Below, piece after piece: positions 202-54,508 of a stretch of 54,508 nt of DNA. This DNA is from Thermosipho affectus (lineage in GTDB: Bacteria; Thermotogota; Thermotogae; Thermotogales; Fervidobacteriaceae). Location of the stretch: contig NZ_LBFC01000010.1 of assembly GCF_001990485.1 (NCBI RefSeq), positions 1 to 54,508 on the forward strand, in the 5' to 3' direction. A model generated the notes under the pieces. The model did no database searches. It saw only the letters and a program-made list of their open reading frames with translations, and was not told the DNA's origin. The stretch's first letter is position 1, and every line of letters begins with the position of its first letter. A program made the translations under genes and the position numbers.

Positions 202-266
202 ATTTATGTACAATTTTGTTCATTTTTATTTTCCTCTTTTTGGCCATTTGTATTTTACCATTTACA

Positions 267-5238: not shown

Positions 5239-6208
5239 CTTTTATTGCCTCCTCAATTTTTGAGGTCAACGAAATTTCTATACCTTGTTTTGCAACCTTT
5301 AGTGCGTGATATATTGCAACTTCATCCGAATTTCCGTGGGCTTTAACCACAATTCCATTCACTCCTACAAAAAATGTTCCACCATATTTTCTCGGATCCA
5401 ATTTTTCTTTTAACTTGTTAAAAACGGGTTTCATAAGAAGTGCGCCAAGTGCGGAAATTACATTCTTTTTTATGTTTGACTTTAAAATTTCAATTATTAG
5501 TTTTGCAGAACCTTCCATTGTTTTCATGGCAATATTTCCATGAAAACCATCTGCAACCACAACATCTACCTTTCCCATGTTTATATCATTTCCCTCAATG
5601 TTTCCTTTAAAACTTTCTCCAAATTTTTCTCTCAAGAGTCTAAAAGCTTCTTGCTCTTTTTTTGTGCCTTTATTTTCCTCAGTTCCTACATTTAATAAAC
5701 CAACCTTAGGATTTTTTATCCCCATAAATTTTGCATATTCAACGCCCATTATAGCAAATTGCAAAAGTGTAAATGGTTTAACATCAATATTAGCACCCGC
5801 ATCTGCAAGTATGCAAAAACCATCCTTTGTAGGAATTGGCACGGCAAGTGTAGGCCTTTCTATTCCTTTTATCCTTCCTACAACAAATGTAGCACAAGCT
5901 AGTAGTGCACCTGTGTTCCCCGCACTTACAACTGCGTCCACTACGTTATCTCTCACCAATTTACAACTTTGATACATAGTACTATTTTTGCGTCTTATAG
6001 CTTCTGTGGGTTTTACATCCATGGGCAGATAATCTTCCACAACAACCTTTCTACAATTACTTGGAAGGGAAATTTCCTTAAAATTTTTCTCTATACCCAC
6101 CAAGTAAAGTTCAACATCTGGATTATCTTTTGCAAAAGCCAAAGCGCCAGCCACGATCTTCGCTGGCGCAAAATCACCACCCATTAAATCAATAGCTATT
6201 TTTTTCAT
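5207..6208 (-). CDS. plsX: Phosphate acyltransferase PlsX
   Basis: The 333-residue enzyme converts acyl-ACP to acyl-phosphate, feeding PlsY and membrane phospholipid synthesis. The N-terminus MKKIAIDLMGGDFAP is the family hallmark, and VSAGNTGALLA and GFHGNIAMKTMEG are further conserved stretches. Length is normal. It sits 2 bp after rpmF and overlaps glmS by 32 bp. The rpmF-plsX pairing is common in bacteria; having glmS instead of fab genes next joins lipid and cell-wall precursor supply in one transcript. Confidence 0.96.
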   Translation of the reverse strand: MKKIAIDLMGGDFAPAKIVAGALAFAKDNPDVELYLVGIEKNFKEISLPSNCRKVVVEDYLPMDVKPTEAIRRKNSTMYQSCKLVRDNVVDAVVSAGNTGALLACATFVVGRIKGIERPTLAVPIPTKDGFCILADAGANIDVKPFTLLQFAIMGVEYAKFMGIKNPKVGLLNVGTEENKGTKKEQEAFRLLREKFGESFKGNIEGNDINMGKVDVVVADGFHGNIAMKTMEGSAKLIIEILKSNIKKNVISALGALLMKPVFNKLKEKLDPRKYGGTFFVGVNGIVVKAHGNSDEVAIYHALKVAKQGIEISLTSKIEEAIKDVWNSRDSGN

Positions 6209-6210
6209 AG

Positions 6211-6393
6211 TTATTCTGCAACTTCAAAAATTTGTTTCTTACCATAGTGTCCGCAGTTCAAACAAACCCTGTGTGGAAGTTTCGGTGCACCACAATTTGG
6301 ACAAACAGATACGGGTACGGAAAATGCTTTGTAGATTTTTGCCCTCTTGTGATGGGTTCTACTTCTTGACCTCTTTTGCTTTGGTACTGCCAT
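6211..6393 (-). CDS. rpmF: 50S ribosomal protein L32
   Basis: A 60-residue basic protein starting MAVPKQKRSRSRTHHKRA, the classical L32 beginning. It has a zinc ribbon, CPNCG at 32-36 and CLNCG at about 44-48, so it is the Zn-binding (C+) form. It lies 18 bp after the DUF177 gene and directly before plsX, the usual context. The C-terminal GKKQIFEVAE tail matches the length of many bacterial L32 proteins. Confidence 0.97.
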   Translation of the reverse strand: MAVPKQKRSRSRTHHKRAKIYKAFSVPVSVCPNCGAPKLPHRVCLNCGHYGKKQIFEVAE

Positions 6394-6411
6394 GAAAAAT
6401 CCCTCCCTTGA

Positions 6412-6960
6412 TTAATTATTGCTTAATTTTTCCTTTAACTTCAAAAGTTTTTCAAATCTAGGGTCTATCGAAAACTCTTCCATTTTTTCACACTTGTGAT
6501 CCGGATGTAAATTTAAATTTTCACCACAATACTGGCACAAACCTTTACAATTTTCATCACACACAAAAACATCAGGAGCACTTACAACAAGTGCTTCTAT
6601 TATTCGCTCTTCAAGGTCTATTACTTCTCCTTTGTAGTATATCACATTTTTTAGATTTTCTATTTCAGAATCTTTAAAATTTGGTTCACTTTCTAAATCG
6701 TATATTCCCTCTATTGTTCCTTCAAGTTCTAAAATAGATGTTTCAAGGCACCTATCACAAGGTCTTTCGATCTTTCCCTTCACTACTCCACCTACTATTA
6801 TTGTGTTGTCTGTATAAACTATAGAGATTTTCACGTGAAATACGTTATCTATTACTTTGTAAGTTCCAGTGTGCAAGTTAATAGTCTCTGTATAATAATC
6901 ATCTTCTATTTTCATATGTCTTTTTGCTATAATATCTTTTACTTTTATTTTCCAAATCAT
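6412..6960 (-). CDS. YceD/DUF177 family protein
   Basis: A 182-residue protein of the DUF177 family, almost always encoded just before rpmF; in plants and E. coli the family has been linked to 23S rRNA maturation. The CxxC-containing motif around residue 78 (ERPCDRCLE) and the cysteine-rich segment near residues 140-160 (CDENCKGLCQYCGENLN) suggest metal binding. The ATG at 6960 follows GAGGTGAT. It is the first gene of the operon and is divergent from the lytic transglycosylase gene, with 48 bp between the two start codons. The role in ribosome assembly is inferred from family and context. Confidence 0.88.
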   Translation of the reverse strand: MIWKIKVKDIIAKRHMKIEDDYYTETINLHTGTYKVIDNVFHVKISIVYTDNTIIVGGVVKGKIERPCDRCLETSILELEGTIEGIYDLESEPNFKDSEIENLKNVIYYKGEVIDLEERIIEALVVSAPDVFVCDENCKGLCQYCGENLNLHPDHKCEKMEEFSIDPRFEKLLKLKEKLSNN

Positions 6961-6988
6961 TTAAATCACCTCTAATTTATGGTATCAT
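6960..6988 (+). promoter_or_regulatory. Possible promoter of the 14-gene plus-strand run
   Basis: TTTAAA (6960-6965), a 17-bp spacer and TGG-TATCAT (extended -10, hexamer 6983-6988) lie just ahead of the AGGAGGG ribosome site of the first gene. The -35 is weak and the leader would be very short. Confidence 0.4.
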
Positions 6989-7008
6989 ATTTAATTAGGA
7001 GGGATTCT

Positions 7009-7968
7009 ATGAAAAAAGCATTTTACGTTTTTCTATTAATAATTGCATCAAATCTATATGCCTTTATGCTAGATCCTTTGAATTATATTACCAAATCTAA
7101 CCTTGGTTTGCAAGTACAATTTTATAACAACGCGGGAAAAATATCCATATACACCCCTTATGTTTACAAAATTGTTTCATACAATACATTTACCGACACC
7201 ATGCGATTTCCAGAAATAGTCAAAGGACTAGCATATATAGAATCTGGTTTTAACATACATGCCCTTTCAAATATCGGTGCAATGGGGGTTGCTCAATTCA
7301 AGGCAAATGCGGCATTAGATTATGGGGTAAACAACGCATGGAACCCAAAGCAAGCGCTTCTTGGTGCTGATAGAATGATAAGGTTCTATTACCAAAAATA
7401 TCAAGATATATATACTGTTTTGGCGATATACAATATTGGAGAAACAAACTACAAAAAAGGAAAATATCTAGATGCGGGAAAAAACTACGCAAGAAAAGTA
7501 ATCTCTGCTTCAAGGAAAATTAGCAGAAATACAAATTTGTACGATAGATATGTGTTATACTTACAAAGTGGTTTCTTAAACGAAAGTACAAATACTTCGT
7601 TTTTTGAAATTGGTAGTATTTTTGATTATCTAGGAATTATTTACTTTGATATATCTTCAAAGTTAATCATCCAAGAGAATAACTATCCTATAGAAATTGG
7701 TGGAAAGTCTTATTTTAGATTAGATCATTTTTCGTCAATTGTTTTCGGATATAATTTAAGGTATAATATTAATATATCAATTGGTCCCATTTTAGGTTAC
7801 TCGCACTTTGAACCTGTCGGCACAAATTATGAGTTATCTTATGATTTTTCAAAGGGATTTAGTTTAAAAAATTTCCAATTTGAAGTGGGATACGGGAATA
7901 AGTATTGGCGTATTGGCCTTGGTTTTGATCCAGACTTTGAAAACTTTTATCTTAGATTTCTATACTGA
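7009..7968 (+). CDS. Lytic transglycosylase (SLT domain) with C-terminal beta-rich region
   Basis: This 319-residue secreted protein probably cleaves peptidoglycan glycan strands. Residues 1-18 are a signal peptide (MKKAFYVFLLIIASNLYA). The SLT-type domain follows, with the catalytic glutamate in YIESGFN (about 70-76), then IGAMGVAQF (the family's GLMQ block) and LAIYNIGETNY (AYNAG block). The last 120 residues lack the SLT fold and look like alternating beta-strands ending in RFLY, as in outer-membrane barrels. The ATG at 7009 follows AGGAGGG, so an in-frame start 30 bp earlier was rejected. It heads a long operon and lies 11 bp before fliF, which suggests a role in letting the flagellar rod through the wall. 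Confidence 0.82.
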   Translation: MKKAFYVFLLIIASNLYAFMLDPLNYITKSNLGLQVQFYNNAGKISIYTPYVYKIVSYNTFTDTMRFPEIVKGLAYIESGFNIHALSNIGAMGVAQFKANAALDYGVNNAWNPKQALLGADRMIRFYYQKYQDIYTVLAIYNIGETNYKKGKYLDAGKNYARKVISASRKISRNTNLYDRYVLYLQSGFLNESTNTSFFEIGSIFDYLGIIYFDISSKLIIQENNYPIEIGGKSYFRLDHFSSIVFGYNLRYNINISIGPILGYSHFEPVGTNYELSYDFSKGFSLKNFQFEVGYGNKYWRIGLGFDPDFENFYLRFLY

Positions 7969-51302: not shown

Positions 51303-52187
51303 TTATAACTTAATTTTTTTATCAAATAAACTATGAAATTCTTGTTCTCCATGAAGTACCATTATCAACGTTTTGGATTTTAATTTTTCAAATATTAACT
51401 TTATTATCTTTTCTTTACTTTGCTCATCTATGTTTGCAAGAGGTTCGTCAAAAATATAGACATCTGCTTCGTTTTCAAGCGCTATACCAATAGCAACTTT
51501 TTGTCTTTCACCTGCAGAAAGATTGGAAGGCAATTTTTCTTTTAACCTTTCTAAACCAAGTTTTTTTATTAATTCTTCATCTTTTATGAGTTCTTTTATA
51601 GGAATTTCTGGAAGTTCAACCGGTGCAGTTATTGATACAACGTTTTTTGGCCTTAACACTTTTCCATTATCTGGCGACAAATATCCAGAGATTATATTTA
51701 AAAGAGTTGTCTTTCCTGCCCCATTTTCTCCAAATATTAATACCTTACTCTTAGGAGTTATTTCCAAATTATCTATTTCTATTACTTTATTTCCATCATA
51801 AGAAAGTTTCACGTTTTTTAAAATTACTCTATTATCCAGGTCAAAATATTCTTTCTTATCAGTATTTAATAAATTTTTTATTCTTTCAAGTATTTGTGAG
51901 TATCTGTGAAATTCTGGAATAGCTTGAACAATTCCAAAAAGGGATGAAACCGCTCTCCAAAATGTGTTTATTATCGCTACAAATCCACCAAAACTCAACT
52001 TTCCAATTAAAACAAAATATCCAGATACTATAAGTGAAAGAGTATCCGACGTGTTTCGAATAATGTCACCTAACATTTGACTTGATTTTACAGCTTTAAA
52101 ACTTTCAAACCTACTGTTTAAATACTCTTCTAAAGTCTCCCTGTGCTTTAATGTTGCAAGGTCAAATATAAAATCAAAAGTTCTCAT
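51303..52187 (-). pseudogene. ABC exporter, C-terminal part: last helices and ATPase domain (split by frameshift)
   Basis: These 294 codons are the second part of a fused membrane-ATPase exporter whose first part is at 52214-52801. The homologous frame actually extends back to about 52259 (TALEREKEGIYTSFLTSVLK, then KVMRTFDFIFDL). The last helices (SLIVSGYFVLIGKLSFGGF) precede the ATPase: Walker A, IFGENGAGKTT (near 152), signature LSAGERQK, Walker B, VYIFDEPLANID, and H-loop VLHGEQ. All ATPase residues look intact. With the LanC-like gene upstream, it probably exported a modified peptide. Whether it is expressed depends on the frameshift. Confidence 0.75.
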
Positions 52188-52213: not shown

Positions 52214-52801
52214 TTAGAAAGCTTGTATAAATTCCTTCTTTTTCTCTTTCAAGTGCTGTTTTTTTCTAACTTTTTGACTTACAACATTCGCAAAATACAT
52301 TAGAGGAGGAATAATAATAAATAACACCAAAGAAGCTCTCCAGGAAATAAAAAACATCGCAAGTAGTAATGCCACTTCTGATACAATCATTGAAACTATA
52401 TTTATTGTCATCCTAATCATTGGAACAACACCTTCATTAACATCTTTGTGAATGGAATTTATAAAATACCCCGCACCCTTTTTGGTAAATTCTTTTAAAT
52501 CATAATTAAAAGTCTTTTTTAGAAGTTCAGATTCAAGATTTAATACTACTTTATTTTCATACCTTTTTTTCCAAAGATTATTTATATAAAACAATAGTAC
52601 AAATATCAAACCAAGTGCAAGATATACTACACTTAAAAGTACAAATTTTTGAAAATTAAGCTTTAATACAGCTTCGTCAAATAGCCACTTTACCATTAAT
52701 GGTTGAATCAAGCCTTCAAAGAAACTTAAAACACTTGAAAAAATAAGAAGTAAGATAAATTCAAATCTCTTTGTCTTTAAAAATTCCCAATATGTTTTCA
52801 T
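52214..52801 (-). pseudogene. ABC exporter, N-terminal membrane part (split by frameshift)
   Basis: A 195-codon frame carrying the first four helices of an ABC exporter: FILLLIFSSVLSFFEGLIQ, FVLLSVVYLALGLIFVLLFYI, MIRMTINIVSMIVSEVALLLAMFFI, and ASLVLFIIIPPLMYFANVV. It goes out of frame after QKVRKK at an A7 run and ends 17 codons later. Together with 51303-52187 it would make about 499 residues, short but complete for a half-size exporter. GGGGGAGGAT precedes the ATG at 52801. It lies 28 bp after the LanC-like gene. Confidence 0.78.
52259..52265 (-). other. Frameshift site: A7 run inside the ABC exporter gene
   Basis: Seven T on the plus strand (A7 in the mRNA). Frame 1 reads AGA AAA AAA CAG; homology continues only in the frame reading AAA ACA GCA, which needs one more A or a -1 slip. 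The layout A-AAA-AAA-C is a classical slippery heptamer, but no Shine-Dalgarno-like stimulator is seen upstream. A sequencing or mutational indel is equally possible. Confidence 0.75.
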
Positions 52802-52829: not shown

Positions 52830-53945
52830 CTAATCTAATAACAATTCATCTTGTGCATTCTTTAATAACCTATTTAAAGTCCTCAAAACACCAGCAATTC
52901 CTGTGCCAAAGTCACACGTTATTCTTATACCACCTTCGCCCAAAACTGCCAAAACTTTTTCTTGTTTTATTCTTTCATCTTTAAAACTACAAACGCTTTT
53001 CGGATTGAAAATATGCATATTTATCAACCCTTCAATTTGTTGTTCTAAAACTTTTAAAATGTCTTTTCTTTCATAGTAAATTACTGTGTCAATTAAGGTA
53101 TCAATGATTCCGGTTATACCAAACAAATATCCAGATAAAACAAAATACTTTCTTCTAAGATCATTTAGGAGCTCTTCAAATATTTTATTCTTTATATTAT
53201 ACCTAAGAGCTACTTTTAAAACACCAGAAGTTCCTACTTCTAAATATGGCTCGTAATTTTTCCCATTGTAAAAGCTTCTCAACCCTTTAAAAACAACACT
53301 TGATCTTAAAATTTCATCGTTAATAGCTTTTTCTCCGATTTTTTTTATATTAGGATTTTTTACAACTTCATACAACTTCAATAAAAATAAGGAAACTCCT
53401 GCAGCACCATATCCAAGTCCATAAAAAGTAGTTTTCTTACTAAAACCATTTTCCCAAAATATTCTTCCAAATTTATCATGTTTTGCATTTTTTACTAGCC
53501 ATTTATAAATTTTCAATGCCTCAGATAAATATTTTTCTTCCTTTGTTAACCTATACATTTTCAAATTAGTAAGCCCAACACCGCTTGCGCCATAATACAA
53601 AGAATAATCTTCGTATAACATCTGATGTTTATTACATCTTTCCATTAACCAATTTGCAAGTTCAATTTCTCCTAATTCAAGTAAAACGAAAACAATTCCA
53701 GAAAGGCCCGTAAGAAATCCTGGTGGAAATAATTCAAAATCAATGTTTTTAACTTTATTTAAAAACCAGTTTTTAAACCTTTTCGGTATATCATTTTTAT
53801 ACTTACTAATTGAATATAATATACCACCTGCCCCAAAACCAAAAGAAATTTCATTAGTTGAATAAACTATCGGATCGCATGGAAAAAGCGTTTGAGTTGA
53901 AAGATCAGCAACATCGCACAAAAAATTAGTTAAACCATCTAACAC
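52830..53945 (-). CDS. LanC-like cyclase domain of a class III (LanKC-type) lanthipeptide synthetase, now separate
   Basis: A 371-codon frame forming a LanC-type alpha-toroid: Gly-rich repeats ISFGFGAGGILYSI, GFLTGLSGIVFVLLE, LYYGASGVGLTNLK, GLGYGAAGVSLFLLK, LEVGTSGVLKVAL and GYLFGITGIIDTLID. It opens with TLFPCDPIVYSTNEISFG, like the start of the cyclase region in LanKC enzymes, and ends ITCDFGTGIAGVLRTLNRLL, like their C-terminus. The Cys-His-Gly zinc motif of LanC/LanM is absent, as in class III. The GTG at 53945 has no good ribosome site, so this is most likely the broken end of a longer gene (see 53950-54508). Confidence 0.75.
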   Translation of the reverse strand: MLDGLTNFLCDVADLSTQTLFPCDPIVYSTNEISFGFGAGGILYSISKYKNDIPKRFKNWFLNKVKNIDFELFPPGFLTGLSGIVFVLLELGEIELANWLMERCNKHQMLYEDYSLYYGASGVGLTNLKMYRLTKEEKYLSEALKIYKWLVKNAKHDKFGRIFWENGFSKKTTFYGLGYGAAGVSLFLLKLYEVVKNPNIKKIGEKAINDEILRSSVVFKGLRSFYNGKNYEPYLEVGTSGVLKVALRYNIKNKIFEELLNDLRRKYFVLSGYLFGITGIIDTLIDTVIYYERKDILKVLEQQIEGLINMHIFNPKSVCSFKDERIKQEKVLAVLGEGGIRITCDFGTGIAGVLRTLNRLLKNAQDELLLD

Positions 53946-53949
53946 ATCT

Positions 53950-54508
53950 TTAATAAAGATCTACTGAATGGACTTTTTCGTCAAAGCTTTGGTTAGTAAA
54001 TGGCCTTGCTTCTTTTATAATTAATAAACGTCTTTTTAATTCGTCAAAAGCCTTATACACTCCCCCACTGTTTGAAAAATGTACTGCCTCAAGTATTCTG
54101 TATCTTTTTTCAATATTAATTCTTTTAAAACCTTTTTCTTTTTTGAAAAAATAAGATCTTTTACCCAATATGGTGTTCTATAATAAGGAAGTCTTTTGTC
54201 CTCAATTTTTTGACCATTTGGAGCAAAAATGATCGGAATTTTTCTCCCAGTTATATCTATCATAAAATGTTTTTTTAATCCCCCATATCTATAGTACAAA
54301 ATACCTTCTTCTTTGTATCTTCTATCACTTAAAATATATGGTCCTTCCTCAAAATATAATTTGTCATGCAAATCCTCAAGCACCTTTTCAAAAATTTTTT
54401 CATCCCTTGGATATATAGTAATAAATTTTCCAGAACTCCCCCTGGAAAATTGTTTAGAGTTAAGTACATATGTAAAAGTCAACATAAAAATGTATAAAAA
54501 AGGGAAAA
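53950..54508 (-). pseudogene. Broken lanthipeptide synthetase: lyase domain and kinase N-lobe (runs off right edge)
   Basis: Two overlapping frames make one gene. The first (open from the window edge to 54036) has the LanKC/LanL lyase-type sequence RGSSGKFITIYP, GPYILSDRRYKEEG and LYYRYGG. After YWVKDLIF it leaves frame at a T6/A6 stretch (54139-54151). The second frame (to 53950) continues FKKEKGFKRINIEKRYRILE and then the kinase start HFSNSGGVYKAF and LLIIKEARPF. It stops at HSVDLY, and the cyclase begins a few bases later in a third frame. The rest of the kinase (catalytic and Mg2+ loops) is missing. The N-terminus and any precursor peptide lie beyond the window. Confidence 0.78.

Follow-up and report, generated by a model that had tools for sequence, protein, structure and literature searches.

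A putative dead class III lanthipeptide cassette in Thermosipho affectus, a member of the phylum Thermotogota

Class III maker enzymes build ring-bridged peptides of the lantibiotic type. The enzyme LanKC consists of a kinase, a lyase, and a zinc-free cyclase (PMC7268733). The class III LanKC family (profile NF038151; solved structures 8sao, 8sap, and 8w7a) exhibits the order lyase, kinase, and cyclase with RamC_N and LANC_like domains, and the copy in the hot-vent bacterium Thermosipho affectus shares these features. However, compared with the solved proteins, the T. affectus copy has no attached N-terminus, no kinase core, and a broken frame, which makes it a pseudogene. The surveys PMC7268733 and PMC4289311 do not mention Thermotogota in connection with class III, and no published report of class III lanthipeptide genes in this phylum was found in the literature that was searched. 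A RiPP of Thermosipho has already been reported, which is the sactipeptide-type cluster of T. melanesiensis (PMC4289311).

The window analysed in this work is the entire contig C10 (54,508 bases) of the 27-contig T. affectus genome. The MiSeq assembly of strain ik275mar (LBFC00000000) consists of 27 contigs with 1,771,018 bp (PMC6211235). Contig C11 of the same assembly (3,077 bases; locus L026) was also analysed. LanKC was identified using the NCBIfam profile NF038151 (833 positions) and the Pfam domains RamC_N and LANC_like. The Thermotogota search set consists of 102 genomes besides the source genome, with three Thermosipho congeners among them. Relatives were identified from one genome per species (84,980 species) using an alignment as the query, which was needed as a single cyclase protein gave zero matches against the species genomes. 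The features of the locus are shown in Table 1.

Table 1. Features of the LanKC and exporter locus of T. affectus. Coordinates refer to the window (contig C10) unless C11 is named.
Feature	Position	Strand	Evidence
ABC exporter, ATPase half (C-terminal)	51303..52187	-	ABC_tran E 3.8e-20; 45% identity to L060 exporter
ABC exporter, membrane half (N-terminal)	52214..52801	-	ABC_membrane E 9.7e-14; 39% identity to L060 exporter
A7 run (T7 on + strand) breaking the exporter frame	52259..52265	-	Frame change relative to L060 exporter
LanKC cyclase domain, 371-aa open frame	52830..53945	-	NF038151 positions 495-833, E 2.1e-53; LANC_like E 8.8e-17
Kinase deletion junction, ~220-240 codons lost, frame changes across	53955..53976	-	Profile jump 263 (53977) to 486 (53954)
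Kinase N-lobe remnant: glycine-rich SNSGGVYKA and ATP-lysine KEARP	53977..54108	-	NF038151 220-263, E 3.1e-12
Lyase/kinase frameshift at T6/A6 runs	54109..54151	-	Three-frame translation
PhosphoSer/Thr lyase domain, C-terminal two thirds	54132..54476	-	NF038151 96-209, E 1.6e-40 (99-209, E 7e-41, in the ORF); RamC_N E 5e-36
Target-site duplication TATGTA (TACATA on + strand)	54465..54470 and C11 52-57		Flanks of both IS ends
Putative IS21-type element end within the LanKC gene	54471..54508	+	Terminal-repeat pattern
Opposite end of the putative IS21-type element	C11 1-51		Terminal-repeat variant

The initial annotation of 52830-54508 as the remnant of a class III LanKC gene in a Thermotogales genome is correct. 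The gene is located on the minus strand and is spread over three frames, and all motifs that had been quoted for it were found there. ORF 54036-54485 contains RGSSGKFITIYP and GPYILSDRRY, ORF 53950-54168 contains HFSNSGGVYKA and IIKEARP, and ORF 52830-53945 contains LFPCDPIVYSTNE and DFGTGIAGV. The LanKC profile matches are strong (NF038151 E to 2e-53), so the family identity is far beyond chance. The matched positions of NF038151 ascend from the lyase to the kinase N-lobe and the cyclase, which is the order that had been proposed. The cyclase is of class III type with missing zinc ligands; it scores 181.9 bits for class III compared with 54.7 for class IV LanL and 58.3 for LanM, and the CHG zinc motif is absent from its 371-aa frame. 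The cyclase can be read without interruption across the whole domain, and the invariant lyase residues are still conserved.

The N-terminus of the enzyme had been predicted to lie to the right of the window, and a profile search of the T. affectus genome located it on contig C11 (55-309, minus strand; NF038151 positions 12-98). Over the two contigs, the LanKC pieces follow in the order of profile positions 12-98, 96-209, 220-263, and 486-832. The RamC_N match is split by the insertion into 71-177 on C10 (E 2.5e-36) and 10-77 on C11 (E 4.5e-16). The gene frame on C11 stops at ...KKILYV and C10 picks up with LNSKQFSRGSSGKF... (LNSKQF). This join of KKILYV to LNSKQF aligns gap-free with the intact LanKC of a Candidatus Bipolaricaulota MAG (L060; contig CALKFO010000011). 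The matching IS ends and the gene register suggest that C10 and C11 are joined through the IS element, as judged from contigs rather than reads. Farther along C11, a lipoprotein-like gene (L026:1121-2495) is broken in two by a frame change at an A9 run.

The two IS ends at LanKC carry variant forms of a single terminal repeat (TGTAAATGG... and TGTAAAAGT...) with TGT...ACA termini, and the target duplication is 6 bp. The body of this copy is unassembled and the element there is known from its two ends. IS21 elements are characterised by an IstA/IstB gene pair, TG...CA ends, and a short target duplication. The element was assigned to the IS21 type because a decayed copy on contig C23 that has the same end encodes IstA-like (identified by eye) and IstB (PF01695, E 9e-39) proteins in several broken frames. 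The putative IS21-type element interrupts LanKC in the lyase domain. Its terminal-repeat pattern has 16 occurrences genome-wide with at most three mismatches compared with 0 for the reversed control. Several of the copies sit at contig ends, which accounts for the fragmented assembly. Another IS21-type end (233-266, minus strand) directly adjoins a CRISPR array at 297-1021 of the window (repeat GTTTAGAACATACCTATGAGGAATGGAAAC), so both ends of C10 are IS copies.

The catalytic part of the kinase is gone, as the initial annotation had stated. Positions ~264-485 of NF038151, which comprise the kinase catalytic and metal-binding loops, were found nowhere in the whole genome even at E<=10. The deletion is also seen in the alignment with the intact relatives L060, L061, and L044. 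The catalytic loop and the metal-binding Asp are lost and the kinase keeps just its N-lobe (220-263). The frame breaks near 54110-54150 and 53954-53977 are present in the assembly, and the LanKC start region on C11 also seems to be one base out of frame. Owing to the IS insertion, the frameshift, and the deletion, the gene does not form a single LanKC reading frame of ~830-920 aa.

An exporter of the cluster type is present in the same gene order as in L060, yet it is frameshifted. A precursor gene, if any, had also been expected just to the right of the window, but no recognisable precursor ORF survives upstream of LanKC on C11. NF038160, the class III precursor family and the sole precursor family searched genome-wide, has zero matches in the whole genome, and the Sx2Sx3C motif was not found upstream of LanKC. 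The lone leader-like LxLQ-like motif in that upstream region is at chance level (P 0.54). The candidate peptide MLVEGKFLKIQKRNKLNF... on C11 (L026 ~450-340, minus strand) was rejected because its motif is at chance level (P 0.54), a frameshift would be required to read it, and no lanthipeptide family matches it. A divergent precursor elsewhere in the genome is possible.

The locus is very probably a class III lanthipeptide cassette that was acquired horizontally and is now dead. Horizontal transfer would have brought the LanKC gene and the trailing ABC exporter into an ancestor of this Thermosipho. The intact kinase would phosphorylate Ser and Thr residues of a small precursor, the lyase would then eliminate the phosphate, and the cyclase would form (methyl)lanthionine or labionin rings by addition of Cys to the dehydro residues. 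The ring-bridged product would be carried out of the cell by the exporter. This pathway would now be blocked where the IS21-type element splits the lyase, where the catalytic core of the kinase is gone, and where the lyase/kinase and exporter frames are shifted. The cassette is considered dead because the kinase core, a whole lyase, a recognisable precursor, and a whole exporter are missing, and the pieces still present would no longer be used.

An assembly or sequencing artefact, where homopolymer errors and a collapsed region mask an intact LanKC, could account for frame breaks that fall within A/T runs and for a gene that is located at a contig end. However, the target duplication that flanks the IS ends cannot be a base-call error, and the sequence lost from the ~220-codon deletion is found nowhere else in the genome. 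These two lesions place the decay that had been claimed for this gene beyond base-call noise. The sequencing platform was also MiSeq, and ORFs densely tile 1196-49509; no gene there is obviously split, although the stretch contains 232 A/T runs of at least six bases. Sequencing errors are therefore an improbable source of the clustered frame breaks. An artefact is thus very unlikely. The intact cyclase frame and the conserved lyase residues indicate that the decay is young or that part of the gene could still be expressed. The 371-aa cyclase ORF, which is open across the whole domain, might be expressed by itself and act as a LanC-like protein in a different role. However, no ribosome site is evident before its GTG start, the genome yielded neither a kinase core nor a precursor with which it could work, and the exporter is broken; such a trimmed working remnant is extremely improbable.

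The scan of species genomes identified at least 578 LanKC relatives. The best relative among the matches listed is L060, with 41-44% identity over both halves. The L060 cassette is similar to that of T. affectus in that LanKC is directly followed by an exporter of the same type (identities of its halves in Table 1). However, both L060 genes are intact, with 921 aa in LanKC and 508 aa in the exporter. Immediately upstream of LanKC, L060 also encodes a recognisable precursor of 34 aa (MKVLSLQRM...SACCSKAM), which scores 29.4 bits for NF038160 against a cut-off of 27. The L060 contig also bears transposase-like ORFs; this "Bipolaricaulota" contig may be misbinned or recently transferred. Exporters of this type also follow LanKC in Meiothermus luteus, Micromonospora, Streptomyces, and several Pseudomonadota. 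The maximum-likelihood tree places the T. affectus LanKC beside L060 and an exporter-bearing actinomycete clade (SH-aLRT 92), and a wider set of 15 rows around it has a support of 97. LanKC and the exporter were probably acquired as a pair because the cassettes of the Bipolaricaulota MAG, Meiothermus, Actinomycetota, and Pseudomonadota match gene for gene.

The profile search did not identify LanKC in the 102 other Thermotogota genomes, including the three Thermosipho congeners. Their NF038151 matches are nearly all within the kinase part (about 215-500) and were rejected as LanKC and read as plain kinases. Horizontal gain of the cassette would be the simplest account of this distribution, and the absence in other Thermotogota could also reflect repeated loss. 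The congener T. melanesiensis BI429 is represented by a single contig of 1,915,238 bp (PMC6211235). It has a cluster of radical SAM/SPASM, S41 peptidase, and ABC genes (L054:3516-8602) beside the orthologue of an MBL-fold gene of the window, and this is probably the sactipeptide cluster Tmel_0409 (PMC4289311). The neighbours other than the MBL-fold gene differ between both species. A common RiPP site is possible, and no firm claim is made for it.

The M. luteus locus (L076) exhibits a decayed LanKC (6001-7278) that adjoins an intact exporter with 84% identity to that of L060. Similar to T. affectus, its kinase core is deleted, its frame is broken, and its exporter is of the shared type. However, its deletion ends elsewhere and takes part of the cyclase too, and the exporter is intact. 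A common deletion point was rejected as the M. luteus deletion lies further along the kinase. The decay in M. luteus is read from these sequences as an independent loss.

The T. affectus gene is the first LanKC gene in Thermotogota among the genomes searched, and the locus is a known kind of cassette in an unusual phylum. The finding adds Thermotogota to the phyla with class III lanthipeptide genes and links the copy of this thermophile to a LanKC-exporter cassette that is common to hot-environment bacteria and Actinomycetota. Two such cassettes, those of Thermosipho and Meiothermus, have decayed independently. It is rather unlikely that other T. affectus strains keep an intact cassette and precursor; if they do, Thermotogota would have its first producers of class III lanthipeptides and, with them, a thermostable LanKC. 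For practical purposes, it is the intact relatives, such as L060, that are of value and not the T. affectus wreck.
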